Positions 4,117 to 10,000 of a stretch of 64,000 nt of DNA are shown here, piece after piece. The translations under genes were made by a program, and so were the position numbers. Source of the stretch: Exiguobacterium sp. (GTDB taxonomy: Bacteria; Bacillota; Bacilli; Exiguobacteriales; Exiguobacteriaceae); contig NZ_JAFIFD010000038.1 of the NCBI RefSeq assembly GCF_020832205.1, positions 1 through 64,000 on the forward strand. The letters are read 5' to 3'. The notes under the pieces were generated by a model. It was not told where the DNA came from and ran no database searches. It saw nothing but the letters and a program-made list of their open reading frames with translations. The first letter of the stretch is position 1, and each line of letters starts with the position of its first letter.

Positions 4117-4148
4117 AATAAACAGACTAAAACGTGGGGGACTTACAC

Positions 4149-5219
4149 ATGAACAAGAAGTATATGGCATTAGGACTTTCGGCAGCACTTACGACATCGT
4201 TGCTTGCGGCTTGTGCGAGCACGGAAGAGACAACGACGACAGGGGACAACGAAACGGCTGAAGAGTCGAAAGTCGTCAACGTCTACTCAAGCCGTCACTA
4301 TGACGTCGACAAAGAGCTTTATAAACAGTTCGAAGAAGAGACGGGCGTCAAAGTCAACGTCGTCGAAGGAAAAGGCGAAGAGCTTCTTGAGCGTTTGAAC
4401 ACAGAAGGCGCGAATACGGAAGCGGATCTCTTCATCACAGCGGACGCAGGAAACTTGCACCAAGCGAAAGAGAATGGCCATCTTCAAGCGGTCGATAGCG
4501 ATGTGCTTGAATCGAACATTCCGGAAAAATATCGTGATACGGATAACGAATGGTTCGGTCTCACGAAGCGCGCCCGTGTCATCGTCTATGCAAAAGACCG
4601 CGTGAACCCAGAAGACTTGTCGACGTATGAAGCGCTCACGGAAGAACAATGGAACGGCAAAGTACTCGTTCGTCCATCTGAGAACATGTATAACATTTCG
4701 CTCCTTGCTTCGTTCATCGAAGTGAACGGTGTCGACAAGGCGAAAGAATGGGCTGAAGGCATGGTCAACAACTTCGCGCGTGACCCACAAGGGAACGACC
4801 GTGACCAAGCGAAAGCCGTTGTGGCCGGAGAAGGCGATGTCGCCATCATGAACACGTACTACATGGGTCTCATGTTGAACTCGGAAGACGCGGAAGAGAA
4901 GAAAGTCGCTGAAGAGCTCGGTGTCTTCTTCCCGAACCAAGACACGACAGGGACACACGTCAACGTCTCAGGGATTGCGATGACAAAAGCATCGAAAAAC
5001 TCGGAAAACGCGAAGAAACTCATGGAGTTCATGTCTGACCCGTCAGCGCAAGAGCAGTTCGCAAGTGCGAACTTCGAATACCCAGTCAACGAATCAGTCG
5101 AGCCGAACGAGCTCCTCAAATCATGGGGTGAGTTCAAAGAACAAGACATCAACTTGTCTGTTCTCGGTGAAAATCAGCAAGAAGCCATCCGCATCTTCAA
5201 CGAAGCCGGTTGGAAATAA
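4149..5219 (+). CDS. Ferric iron ABC transporter, substrate-binding lipoprotein
   Basis: 356 residues; family-1 extracellular solute-binding protein of the FbpA/FutA iron group. Residues 1-22 are a lipoprotein signal with lipobox LAAC (Cys22). The mature part opens with VNVYSSRHYDVD, and the paired tyrosines Tyr237-Tyr238 (NTYYMG) match the iron-ligand tyrosines of the FbpA family. ATG 4149 is chosen because GGGGG at 4136-4140 gives a proper ribosome site and the lipobox fits; the GTG at 4134 would sit inside that site. Followed by the fused permease and ATPase genes after a terminator-like hairpin, which probably keeps the binding protein in excess. Two Fur boxes lie upstream. Confidence 0.92.
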   Translation: MNKKYMALGLSAALTTSLLAACASTEETTTTGDNETAEESKVVNVYSSRHYDVDKELYKQFEEETGVKVNVVEGKGEELLERLNTEGANTEADLFITADAGNLHQAKENGHLQAVDSDVLESNIPEKYRDTDNEWFGLTKRARVIVYAKDRVNPEDLSTYEALTEEQWNGKVLVRPSENMYNISLLASFIEVNGVDKAKEWAEGMVNNFARDPQGNDRDQAKAVVAGEGDVAIMNTYYMGLMLNSEDAEEKKVAEELGVFFPNQDTTGTHVNVSGIAMTKASKNSENAKKLMEFMSDPSAQEQFASANFEYPVNESVEPNELLKSWGEFKEQDINLSVLGENQQEAIRIFNEAGWK

Positions 5220-5227
5220 GACGACTT

Positions 5228-5260
5228 CGGCTTGAACAAATGTTCAAGCCGGAGGTTTTT
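5228..5260 (+). terminator. Intra-operon terminator/attenuator
   Basis: Stem CGGCTTGAAC (5228-5237) with 5242-5251, loop AAAT, then GGAGGTTTTT. It lies between the binding-protein gene and the permease gene, so partial termination would lower expression of the membrane parts. Confidence 0.75.
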
Positions 5261-5353
5261 CTGTTTCCGGACAGTCTGACGGTACAACGAGTGGCCGGAA
5301 ACTGATATGATGGGACAGGAAGTGATTGAACGAAAGAATGGGAGCGGTACGGC

Positions 5354-6991
5354 ATGAACTGGTATGCGATGAAACGACAATTGAATGGATGGGCCATCTT
5401 GAGCTTTATCGCCTTGTTGTTCATCGTCTTGCCCGGCGTCGTCGTGCTCGTCGAGCTGTTCGCGCCAGTGAACGACAACTGGCAACATATACGCGAATAT
5501 TTATTGCCGCGTTACGTCCGCAACACACTCTTCATCATGCTCGCGACCGGCGTCTTGACGACCATCATCGGGACGAGTCTCGCGTGGTTCGTGACCGTGT
5601 ACGATTTCCCGTTCCGTCGATTCTTCAAATGGGCGCTCATTTTACCGCTCGCGATTCCCCCTTACATCGGGGCGTATACGTATCACGGGATTTTGAACTA
5701 TACCGGGGTCATTCAGACGACACTTCGGAACGACTTTGGGATCACCGTGAATCAGTCTTATTTCAACATCATGACGATTCAAGGGACGATTTTTATCTTC
5801 ACCCTGTTCTTGTATCCGTACATCTATACGATCACACGTGCGTTTCTCCACAACCAGTCGTCCTCGATGATCGAGAACGCCCGCATCCTTGGACGCGGGT
5901 CGTGGGATATCTTCTTTACCGTCGTCATCCCGATCTCTCGCGTCGCCATTATCGGCGGCGTCAGCCTCGTCTTGATGGAAGTGTTGAACGATTACGGGGT
6001 CGTGAAGTACTTCGGGATCCAAACGTTCAGCACGGCGATCTTCAGCACATGGTTCGGGATGAAAGATACGTCTTCGGCGCTCAAACTCGCCGGCACGCTC
6101 ATGATTCTCGTCATCGCGATTCTGACGATGGAACGGCTCGTCCGGGGACGAAAACAGTTCAGCTATGCGACGACGAAAGTGAAGCCGCTCAAGCCGAGAC
6201 CGCTGAACGGATGGCATCGTTACGCCGTGCTCGGCTACGTGGCGACGGTGTTCGGGATTGCGTTTCTCATCCCGTTCGTCCAGCTCATCGCTTGGACGGT
6301 ACTGACGTTCGAGCAAGTGTTCACGGCCGCATTCTTCCGACTCGTCTGGAACACCGTGAGCGTCGCGTTCATCGCGACGGTAATCATTCTCGTGTTTGCA
6401 CTCATCATCGCCAACTATACGCGGCTGTTCCCGTCGAACATGACGCGGGTCATCTCGAAAGTGACGACACTCGGCTATTCGATTCCGGGAGCGGCGATCG
6501 CTATCGCCGTTATCACGTTGTTCTTACTATTGGATGAATGGGTGCTAAAAGCAGCGCTCGCGCTAGACTTAGGTCAGACGTTCGTATTCCGCACGACGCT
6601 CATCATGCTCATTTTCGCGTACGTCATCCGCTTCCTCGCCATCGGGTACAACTCGATCGAGAGCGGGTTCGAGAAAGTCGGAAAGTCGTTCACCGAGGCG
6701 TCGCGCATGCTCGGGTGGGGAACGGTGCAGACGTTCTTCCGGGTCGATATCCCGATGATCAAAGGGGCGATCATGAGCGCGTTCATCCTCGTCTTCATCG
6801 ACATTATGAAAGAGTTGCCGCTGACACTGTTTTTACAACCGTTCAACTTCTCAACGCTTGCGACTCAAGCGTTCAAATATGTCAGTGACGAGAAAATTCA
6901 TGAGGCCGCGCTCGCCTCGATCGTCATCGTGCTCATGAGCGGATTGTTGATCTTTGTTTTCCATAAGGTGCTTGATAAGGAGGCCGACTAA
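5354..6991 (+). CDS. Ferric iron ABC transporter, fused permease
   Basis: 545 residues; FbpB/SfuB-type permease in which two six-helix halves are joined in one chain. Each half carries the EAA loop that docks the ATPase: ENARILGRG near residue 175 and EASRMLGWG near 450. The first helix (residues 13-36) starts straight after a short basic N-terminus. Start at ATG 5354 follows a modest GGGAGCGG site. The stop overlaps the ATPase start by one base (TAATG), implying translational coupling. It moves Fe3+ delivered by the upstream lipoprotein across the cytoplasmic membrane. Confidence 0.9.
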   Translation: MNWYAMKRQLNGWAILSFIALLFIVLPGVVVLVELFAPVNDNWQHIREYLLPRYVRNTLFIMLATGVLTTIIGTSLAWFVTVYDFPFRRFFKWALILPLAIPPYIGAYTYHGILNYTGVIQTTLRNDFGITVNQSYFNIMTIQGTIFIFTLFLYPYIYTITRAFLHNQSSSMIENARILGRGSWDIFFTVVIPISRVAIIGGVSLVLMEVLNDYGVVKYFGIQTFSTAIFSTWFGMKDTSSALKLAGTLMILVIAILTMERLVRGRKQFSYATTKVKPLKPRPLNGWHRYAVLGYVATVFGIAFLIPFVQLIAWTVLTFEQVFTAAFFRLVWNTVSVAFIATVIILVFALIIANYTRLFPSNMTRVISKVTTLGYSIPGAAIAIAVITLFLLLDEWVLKAALALDLGQTFVFRTTLIMLIFAYVIRFLAIGYNSIESGFEKVGKSFTEASRMLGWGTVQTFFRVDIPMIKGAIMSAFILVFIDIMKELPLTLFLQPFNFSTLATQAFKYVSDEKIHEAALASIVIVLMSGLLIFVFHKVLDKEAD

Positions 6992-7698
6992 TGTTTGTTC
7001 AAATCAACGATTTACACTTCAGCTATAAAGGTGCGCATGCCGAGACGATCAAAGGGTTCTCGCTCTCGATCACGAAAGGTGAGATTGTATCGCTCCTCGG
7101 TGACAGCGGTTCGGGGAAAAGTACGATTTTACGCCTCATCGCCGGTCTCGAGATGCCGAATCAAGGTGTCGTCGTCGTCAACGATTGCGTCTGTTGTGAC
7201 GACTGCCAGTTCATGCCGCCTGAACAACGCGGTGTCGGCATGGTGTTTCAGGACTATGCACTGTTCCCGCACATGACCGTTGAAAAGAACATCCGGTTCG
7301 GCCTCCACAAACTGAGCCGGAAAGAACGGAACGAACGGGTCGAGGAGATGCTTGCGCTCGTAAACTTGTCTGAGTTCCGTCATCGGTATCCGTACGAGTT
7401 GAGCGGTGGTCAACAGCAGCGTGGCGCGCTCGCGCGTGCGCTCGCACCAAGACCGTCGTTGTTGATTCTAGATGAACCGTTCAGTAACTTGGACACATCG
7501 CTTCAGCACCGGATCCGCGACGATTTGCGCCGGCTCTTGAAACAGACGGGCACGACGACAATCTTTGTCACGCACGACGAGGAAGACGCGGAAGCGCTCG
7601 CCGACCGCATCGTCTACCTCGGAGAAGGAAAAATCAAGAAACAGATCATGACAGAGAACAACAAGACGTTCAATCCGCAAATCCCATGTTTCGTGTAA
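6991..7698 (+). CDS. Ferric iron ABC transporter, ATP-binding protein
   Basis: 235 residues; FbpC-like ATPase. Walker A GDSGSGKST (residues 38-45), Q-loop in MVFQDYALFP, signature LSGGQQQR, Walker B LLILDEP and H-loop VTHD are all present. It lacks the C-terminal TOBE-type extension of longer FbpC proteins. Unusual feature: between Walker A and the Q-loop, residues 66-72 read CVCCDDC, four cysteines in seven residues, where most relatives have an ordinary loop. TAAGGAGG at 6976 serves as ribosome site and the start overlaps the permease stop. It energises the transporter encoded just upstream. Confidence 0.92.
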   Translation: MFVQINDLHFSYKGAHAETIKGFSLSITKGEIVSLLGDSGSGKSTILRLIAGLEMPNQGVVVVNDCVCCDDCQFMPPEQRGVGMVFQDYALFPHMTVEKNIRFGLHKLSRKERNERVEEMLALVNLSEFRHRYPYELSGGQQQRGALARALAPRPSLLILDEPFSNLDTSLQHRIRDDLRRLLKQTGTTTIFVTHDEEDAEALADRIVYLGEGKIKKQIMTENNKTFNPQIPCFV

Positions 7699-7701
7699 CA
7701 G

Positions 7702-7740
7702 AAAAGCTCCCACAGGACGGTCGTCCTGCGGGAGCTTTTT
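7702..7740. terminator. Bidirectional terminator
   Basis: Stem 7702-7718/7723-7739 (AAAAGCTCCC...GGGAGCTTTT, one mismatch) with T-runs both ways. Ends the iron operon and the convergent sortase gene. Confidence 0.85.
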
Positions 7741-7744
7741 ACGT

Positions 7745-8641
7745 TCACTTCGTCGTCTCAGAAGGGCTCGACTCGTTCCCGAGCCGATCGATCGCCGTCA
7801 CGTAATACGTCGCTTGCTCATTCGTCACTTCGACGCTTTTACGAGCGTGTGACGGTACGCTCTCGATCCGCGTCGCGTCTCCAGCGATGACTTCATAGAC
7901 ACGGTAGCCGATGACGGCGTCGTCGCGGACCGCGTGCCACGTGAGCAAGTTACCGCTCAACGTGACATTCGTCGGGGCGTCGAGTTCAACTTCCGTATTC
8001 ATCTCGCTATCGACAAGCTCCGTATAGACGACGAAACGTTGGTCGTAGCCGCCATCCCCGAACGTGCCGGAACACGTGATCAAGTTCAAGTTGCGATGCG
8101 ACGTCGCTCCAAAAATCTCTTCGATCGGAGCGTTGCTCGTATCATAGCTTTCTGTCTTTGTGACGCGAAACGTCAACGTATTGCCGTTCTCGTCGATGAT
8201 CGCCACGTCATCGCCCGCCTTCAGCTGATCGAGTTCATAAAAGACGGCAGGCCCTGTCTTACTGTCCACATGTCCGGCAACGACGGCGTTGCCTTTACTG
8301 CCAGGTTTGACACCGGGTTCGAACCAGCCGACTTGATCTTCATCAGTTGGTACGCCCATCTGTCCGTTGTCGAGCACGCCGACTTGTTCGATGGCGGTGT
8401 CGACAGCGATGCTCGGGATTTGAATACGGACAGGTGTCGCGGCTTTGGCACTTTCCTCTTCTTCGGCTAATCTGAGCTTCTTCACCTCTTCCTGTAGAAG
8501 TGAGAATTCAGCCGTTAAATCTGGGCTCTCCTCTATTTGTTTTTCTTCTACAGGTGGTGACGACGATTCTTGGGCGCTCGTCCACGTCCAGAAGCCAAAA
8601 CAAAACAGAGAGAGCGCCAGAAACAAATGGCGCTTGTTCAT
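7745..8641 (-). CDS. Class F-like sortase with C-terminal FN3-like domain
   Basis: 298 residues. A signal-like segment (residues 5-23), a Glu/Lys-rich coiled stretch to about 65, then a sortase (C60) core: His124 in VVAGHVDS, Cys190 in LITCSG and Arg202 in YDQRF form the expected catalytic triad. Residues about 221-295 look like one fibronectin type III domain (TNVTLSGNLLTWHAV, YRVYE, YYVTAIDRLGNES), which is not part of the ordinary sortase fold. It lies 18 bp behind the gene for an MPETG-anchored protein on the same strand, so this protein is the obvious substrate. Signal peptide versus membrane anchor is uncertain: sortases usually stay membrane-bound through this helix. Confidence 0.88.
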   Translation of the reverse strand: MNKRHLFLALSLFCFGFWTWTSAQESSSPPVEEKQIEESPDLTAEFSLLQEEVKKLRLAEEEESAKAATPVRIQIPSIAVDTAIEQVGVLDNGQMGVPTDEDQVGWFEPGVKPGSKGNAVVAGHVDSKTGPAVFYELDQLKAGDDVAIIDENGNTLTFRVTKTESYDTSNAPIEEIFGATSHRNLNLITCSGTFGDGGYDQRFVVYTELVDSEMNTEVELDAPTNVTLSGNLLTWHAVRDDAVIGYRVYEVIAGDATRIESVPSHARKSVEVTNEQATYYVTAIDRLGNESSPSETTK

Positions 8642-8659
8642 GGGCTCCCTCCTTATTGG

Positions 8660-10000
8660 TTATTGAACAGATTCTTTACGGTTGCGAAGTGTGACAAAGG
8701 CGAGTAAGATTCCGCCAAGTACAGCAAGGCCAGCGTAGAGGGTGTTCATCGATTGTGTTTGTGCACCACCGAGACCTGTCTCAGGCATCTCTTCAGGCAT
8801 CGTCGTTTCAGCGAACTTGTCAGGCATTTGTGTCACGATCGCGTTACCGAGTGTTTCACCAACACCGAACATGAACGCATAGCCTTCACGGAATGACATC
8901 CAAGCCGCGTCCGCGTCACCGGCTACATACTGATCGAACGTTTGAAGCACGAGTGCCTCGTGTTGCATGATCGCTTCTTGGCCAGCTGCTTGTGGCAAGT
9001 TGCCTTCTGTCGCCGCATCGAGGAACGTGCTGAAGTCGACAGCGAACTGATCGAGTTTCATACGTGCTTCTTCGATTTTAGCTTCGTCGCCTTCGAGTGT
9101 GGCGGCGACGATATCACCTTGAGCCGTGATGTGGTTGCCGTTCCATACTTTCTCGAACTGGGCCGCGCCTTCGTCACCATAGACCGAAGCGATTGCTGCT
9201 TTGAAGTCGAGTGTGTTCTGGTCTTCAGCCCAGCTCACGTAGTCGAAGTCTTCCGCTTTATCATAACCTTTCTGCATGCCGATCGCAGCGAGGGCGAAGT
9301 GTTCACCAGCGAGGCTATTCAATGTCGAACGGAGCTCGACGGCCGGTGTGTCGGCTGGTGTGTCGAACTTGTCAGGCATTTGTGTGACGATGGCGCCAGA
9401 GAGTGCTTTACTGATGTCGAACATGAGTTTGTAGCCTTCACGGTACGTCATGTAAGCCGACTCATAGTCACCGGCTACATAGTTGTCGAACACTGAGAGA
9501 ACTTGATCTTCGTGAAGCTCGAGTACGTCAGCCGCTGCGTCTTTTGGAAGGTTCCCTTCTGTCGCTGCATCAAGGAACGTTGAGAATTCTTCGACGAACT
9601 CATCGACTTCCGCTTCCGCTTCAGCACGGAGTTCTTTGTCGTCCGACTTGGCCGCTTCGACGAAATCAGCCGAGTAGTCGTTATGACCAGCGAAGATGTC
9701 TTCGAACTGGGCCGCGCCTTCGTCACCATAAATCGAAGCGATGGCCGGTGTCATGTCGAGCGCGTTTTGATCGAGTGCTTTCATCGCGACTTCGGCGTCA
9801 GGTGCCCCGTCGTACGCTTTCATCATCGAGGTGACCGCTAAGACGTAGTGCTCAGACAGCAACTGATCGAGTGTCGCTCGAAGGTCTCCAGCTGGTGTGC
9901 TCGCTGTCGGTGCGTGATCTGCCGCCTGGGCATTGATTGGGACGAGTAATCCTAACGCTAATGCCGGTGCTACAATTTTGTTCATTGTTTTCTTCTTCAT
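8660..10000 (-). CDS. Duplicated-domain surface protein with MPETG sorting signal
   Basis: 446 residues. Signal peptide ends near AQA-A (residue 26/27). Two copies of a helical domain, about 38-212 and 222-395, are clearly homologous: both hold IYGDEGAAQFE/VYGDEGAAQFE, STFLDAATEGNLP and IVTQMPDKF. Each copy keeps three histidines in register (His51/234, His106/290, His163/347), which suggests a metal site or ligand pocket. The C-terminus is a classic sorting signal: MPETG at 405-409, a hydrophobic stretch, then RNRKESVQ. AGGAGCG precedes ATG 10000. Cotranscribed with the sortase. Relatives are, from memory, sometimes labelled copper amine oxidase; nothing here supports that. Function unknown. 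Confidence 0.82.
   Translation of the reverse strand: MKKKTMNKIVAPALALGLLVPINAQAADHAPTASTPAGDLRATLDQLLSEHYVLAVTSMMKAYDGAPDAEVAMKALDQNALDMTPAIASIYGDEGAAQFEDIFAGHNDYSADFVEAAKSDDKELRAEAEAEVDEFVEEFSTFLDAATEGNLPKDAAADVLELHEDQVLSVFDNYVAGDYESAYMTYREGYKLMFDISKALSGAIVTQMPDKFDTPADTPAVELRSTLNSLAGEHFALAAIGMQKGYDKAEDFDYVSWAEDQNTLDFKAAIASVYGDEGAAQFEKVWNGNHITAQGDIVAATLEGDEAKIEEARMKLDQFAVDFSTFLDAATEGNLPQAAGQEAIMQHEALVLQTFDQYVAGDADAAWMSFREGYAFMFGVGETLGNAIVTQMPDKFAETTMPEEMPETGLGGAQTQSMNTLYAGLAVLGGILLAFVTLRNRKESVQ

Follow-up and report, generated by a model that had tools for sequence, protein, structure and literature searches.

Two adjacent genes in a 64,000-nucleotide stretch of Exiguobacterium DNA (the window) probably form an autonomous, dedicated module for surface display, in which a class F-like sortase would recognise an MPxTG sorting motif and carry a fibronectin type III (FN3) domain as an accessory. 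The protein encoded next to the sortase is most likely the one that the enzyme attaches. Judged from the sequence, a signal peptide would export this partner, and a hydrophobic stretch followed by a basic tail, C-terminal to its MPETGLGG motif, would hold it in the membrane; the membrane-anchored sortase would then recognise MPxTG, cleave between T and G, and transfer the two-domain helical partner to the cell wall. Export, membrane retention, T-G cleavage and wall transfer are steps of the general sortase mechanism. Among class F-like sortases, one branch has FN3 as an accessory module, which most likely helps to position or select a matching partner subfamily; docking, wall binding and spacing are candidates for what it may do.

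The sortase, the sorting signal and the FN3 domain are each of a known kind, and it is their combination that may be new. Neither this combination, nor the MPXTG code, nor the role implied for class F-like enzymes was found in the literature searched, which mostly excluded subscription journals, in keeping with the original prediction of an undescribed small system. Within the same limits, no relevant title was returned for sortase with FN3 or for sortase with copper amine oxidase. A conserved MPxTG pair suggests a job for class F sortases, whose physiological role has been described as unknown (PMC13251363). Class F specificity becomes directly testable through the conserved pair, the Met at P4 and the accessory domain, whose presence follows the partner, and a class F-like enzyme could join the ligation enzymes now in use as an orthogonal one.

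The gene pair and its conservation

The window is from Exiguobacterium, and sequence checks reproduced the reading frames and coordinates of the pair exactly (Table 1), as well as the 18-bp gap by which the partner gene lies upstream of the sortase gene on the same strand. The inverted repeat, which was read from the sequence directly and was absent from the output of a scan, lies between the pair and a convergent ABC-transporter operon. By eye, that operon (window 4134-7698) resembles the ferric-iron type, with a binding protein, a permease and an ATPase.

Table 1. Features of the sortase-partner locus, in window coordinates.
Feature	Position	Strand	Basis
Inverted repeat between A/T runs, likely bidirectional terminator	7702..7740	.	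read directly
Class F-like sortase, 298 aa, triad H124/C190/R202	7745..8641	-	sequence, profile matches, alignment
FN3 tail of sortase, residues 220-298	7748..7984	-	tail profile, AlphaFold strands
Sortase catalytic domain, residues 66-213	8003..8446	-	Pfam, predicted model, fold search
N-terminal hydrophobic helix, sortase residues 4-20, probable membrane anchor, without lipobox	8582..8632	-	sequence-based inference
GGAGGGAG, ribosome-binding site of sortase, inside the 18-bp gap	8645..8652	-	read directly
Partner protein, 446 aa, secreted, C-terminal sorting signal	8660..10000	-	sequence, structure prediction
Hydrophobic stretch and basic tail of sorting signal, partner residues 418-446	8663..8749	-	
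Sorting motif MPETGLGG, partner residues 405-412	8765..8788	-	
Helical repeat 2, residues 217-397, conserved E233 H234 H290 H347	8810..9352	-	
Helical repeat 1, residues 35-216, conserved E50 H51 H106 H163	9353..9898	-	
Partner signal peptide, residues 1-26	9923..10000	-	by eye, inference

The pairing is conserved as a unit across many genera, far beyond chance. Both genes are kept in 17 of 18 Exiguobacterium congeners and the remaining genome (G001) lacks both, a distribution that suits the dedicated sortase-substrate pair originally predicted. The pair was also found in Halobacillus, Rossellomorea, Jeotgalibacillus, Chryseomicrobium and others; named relatives with homologues include these four genera, Pontibacillus and Metabacillus. 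The gene-neighbourhood survey that had been proposed as a check recovered 121 partner homologues scoring over 300 bits. A tailed sortase lies immediately downstream of 70 of them and a plain (tail-less) one of 26; the other 25 have no sortase in the locus. These counts are of loci rather than independent lineages, some genomes having entered twice by two routes, and one locus tallied as plain (L240) is a frameshifted sortase gene that still encodes the tail. Seen from the side of the enzyme, L249 is the one case among the 71 tailed sortases surveyed that does not adjoin a partner, adjacency having been checked on a de-duplicated set, and it has a partner in the same locus. Apart from the pair itself, no neighbour family is recurrent: the most frequent Pfam family matches only 4 of 140 neighbour proteins. 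A Halobacillus plasmid gave a class F sortase alignment spanning residues 9-298, but no partner match. The further claim that the enzyme has one substrate holds for this genome under a strict DNA pattern, but not for a sister Exiguobacterium group, where there are mostly two to three partner-type proteins for each tailed sortase.

A class F-like sortase with an FN3 tail

The sortase domain matched Pfam Sortase (E=1.1e-24), and the predicted triad of His124, Cys190 and Arg202 was present in the window enzyme and invariant across 33 aligned tailed homologues; with a sortase fold and a His-Cys-Arg triad, the enzyme belongs to the sortase superfamily. Its nearest class was class F (NCBIfam NF033748), at 148.6 bits versus 45 bits for class E, the next best, and because this score lies under the curated class F cut-off of 166 bits, we name the enzyme class F-like. 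Class F matches over the NCBIfam cut-off were found in none of 398 Bacilli genomes; a Halobacillus homologue of the window sortase bears the annotation 'class F sortase'.

Dedicated sortase-substrate gene pairs exist elsewhere, for example in class B with iron proteins and in class C with pilins. Here too the sortase adjoins its likely substrate, but the class and the motif are others, FN3 sits on the enzyme, and no pilin or iron-uptake cluster lies alongside. Compared with class F sortases such as SrtF of Cutibacterium acnes, the window enzyme is alike in its triad and scores best against that class by about 100 bits, but differs in its sub-cut-off score, in its FN3 tail and in having an MPxTGxGG partner instead of LPXTG, the motif reported for the C. 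acnes enzyme.

By homology, the tail of the sortase is an FN3 domain. No Pfam score was obtained for it when the whole protein was searched; searching the PDB with a profile built from 37 tails gave fibronectin FN3 domains (best E=8.8e-7), and Pfam fn3 was matched weakly by 9 of the 37 (best E=1.4e-4), which bears out the FN3-like C-terminus of the original prediction. In the AlphaFold model of the sortase, residues 221-298 form a run of beta strands (pLDDT 86-94) in a pattern that fits FN3. Since the pTM of the sortase model was only 0.54, the relative placement of its domains cannot be read from it, and the result rows of a fold search with the whole model span the sortase domain only. The tail shares its profile match with known FN3 domains, but is distinct in being fused to a sortase and in its positions R52-K53 and E75-S76 (tail numbering), which are conserved in the 37 diverse tails.

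A lipobox pattern was seen in 2 of 52 tailed and 23 of 38 plain class F-like sortases, with certain calls resting on uncertain start codons. Many of the tail-less enzymes (loci L085-L278) have the pattern and may be lipoproteins, and tailed ones rarely have it.

The Met motif and the partner subfamilies

Met occupied P4 in all 118 partner homologues whose motif could be recognised, under a pattern that allowed T or A before G; this pattern replaced an initial T-only one once the Sutcliffiella signals had been seen. Among 360 Bacilli genomes outside the Exiguobacterium family, a strict DNA pattern coding for MPxTGxGG was present in 45 of 56 with a strong class F match versus 21 of 304 without one (Fisher p=1e-30, a descriptive value because the genomes are not independent of one another by descent and because class F matches were sorted into strong and weak ones by eye, near E=1e-28). 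Of 76 strong class F sortase matches, 52 had the pattern a short way upstream. Matches to a gapped LPxTG DNA pattern were mostly uninformative. PxTGxGG occurs three times in the source genome, and two of these copies lie in the proteins paired with its two class F-like sortases.

At least three unrelated substrate types carry the Met motif. DUF4397 proteins beside class F-like sortases have it and are unrelated to the window partner. Tiny secreted peptides, whose genes immediately precede those of tail-less class F-like sortases (L180, L181, L182, L198, L094, L095, L197), end in MPxTGxGG and a few residues, without a hydrophobic tail; most are His/Lys-rich, and that of L182 is Gln/Gly-rich. 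The second class F-like sortase of the source genome (G000 C30, L092 3317-4775) overlaps or adjoins a DUF4397 protein ending in APETGQGG, and Met at P4 is thus not absolute. Because unrelated neighbours of class F-like sortases share the motif, Met marks not the FN3 enzyme but the whole Bacilli class F-like group, with or without FN3. Of the original proposal that Met reflects a matching specificity, the match at P4 survives, but it is not peculiar to the FN3 enzyme.

The partner tree has two main groups; one holds the partners of tailed sortases, and the other most partners of plain ones. On the first partner tree the FN3 label required 5 changes (shuffled mean 26). On a trimmed tree of 43 tailed and 14 plain rows, with four long-branch rows left out and L240 corrected, FN3 versus plain required a single change, a claim weakened because the omitted rows were chosen after the first tree had been seen. 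The tail required 4 changes on the sortase tree, in which few forks were resolved. Three genomes (G381, G140 and G336) hold both pair types, each sortase lying beside its own partner subfamily.

This co-inheritance of tail and partner fits FN3-assisted partner selection, but is also expected from linked inheritance; adjacency and co-inheritance can stem from linkage alone. We give somewhat less than an even chance to the reading in which FN3 is a spacer or wall-binding module that takes no part in substrate choice, its link to a partner subfamily reflecting the inheritance of adjacent genes. One event followed by co-inheritance would give the single change on the trimmed tree, and the same partner family is also paired with tail-less sortases; the tailed branch moreover differs in anchoring by its lipobox counts, so tail and anchor may have shifted together architecturally. 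Conservation of R52-K53 and E75-S76, however, exceeds the need of a passive spacer, and genomes with both pair types keep the types matched.

It seems unlikely that Met at P4 is a matter of shared ancestry of the C-terminal signal, with an enzyme that would take LPxTG equally. Sorting signals are exchangeable as a unit, and PMC13257024 (citing Di Girolamo 2019) reports a class F enzyme with LPXTG, but Met is also found at P4 in unrelated neighbours of other class F-like sortases, namely the DUF4397 proteins and the tiny His/Lys-rich peptides without a hydrophobic tail. That the MPETG protein is anchored mainly by another sortase, the window enzyme serving other substrates, is quite improbable: although two further sortases and one LPLTG protein were seen in the source genome, at 15 bits the third sortase falls outside the class F-like group, the second class F-like sortase adjoins a PxTGxGG partner of its own, and the pairing is tight, down to the joint absence from G001. 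The dedicated two-gene module is thus the reading that we prefer. A broader proposal, that Bacilli class F-like sortases have their own MPxTGxGG substrate system in which the FN3 tail gives some of the enzymes orthogonal partner choice in cells with at least two pairs that share one short motif, is put forward tentatively, as somewhat doubtful.

The partner protein

As originally predicted, the gene upstream of the sortase encodes a duplicated MPETG protein. It consists of two helical repeats of ∼180 residues, 52% identical to each other (E=3e-62), was predicted with high confidence to be all-helical, and ends in the motif, the hydrophobic stretch and a basic tail reading RNRKESVQ. These three parts of the sorting signal were recognised by eye; the protein scored below the Pfam Gram_pos_anchor cut-off of 20 bits, both as a whole (13.6) and in the genome search (17.5). 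Glu and His residues, considered as a possible metal site, are conserved in each repeat among 35 aligned sequences, and a divergent group of homologues lacks the middle His. A search with the partner fold, which is uninformative for helical bundles, gave no Foldseek match at E<=0.001 and no VIA match with Z >=8.

Planococcus proteins annotated as 'copper amine oxidase' are homologous to most of the length of the partner, but the partner had no Pfam match to the amine oxidase catalytic domain at E up to 1. Because a Bacilli homologue (G181) has the helical repeats joined to Cu_amine_oxidN1 in place of the sorting signal, this name was probably carried over. In the sister Exiguobacterium group (L102, L088), some extra partner copies lie near PepSY_TM, YtkA and CopD genes, a proximity that gives a weak hint of metals.
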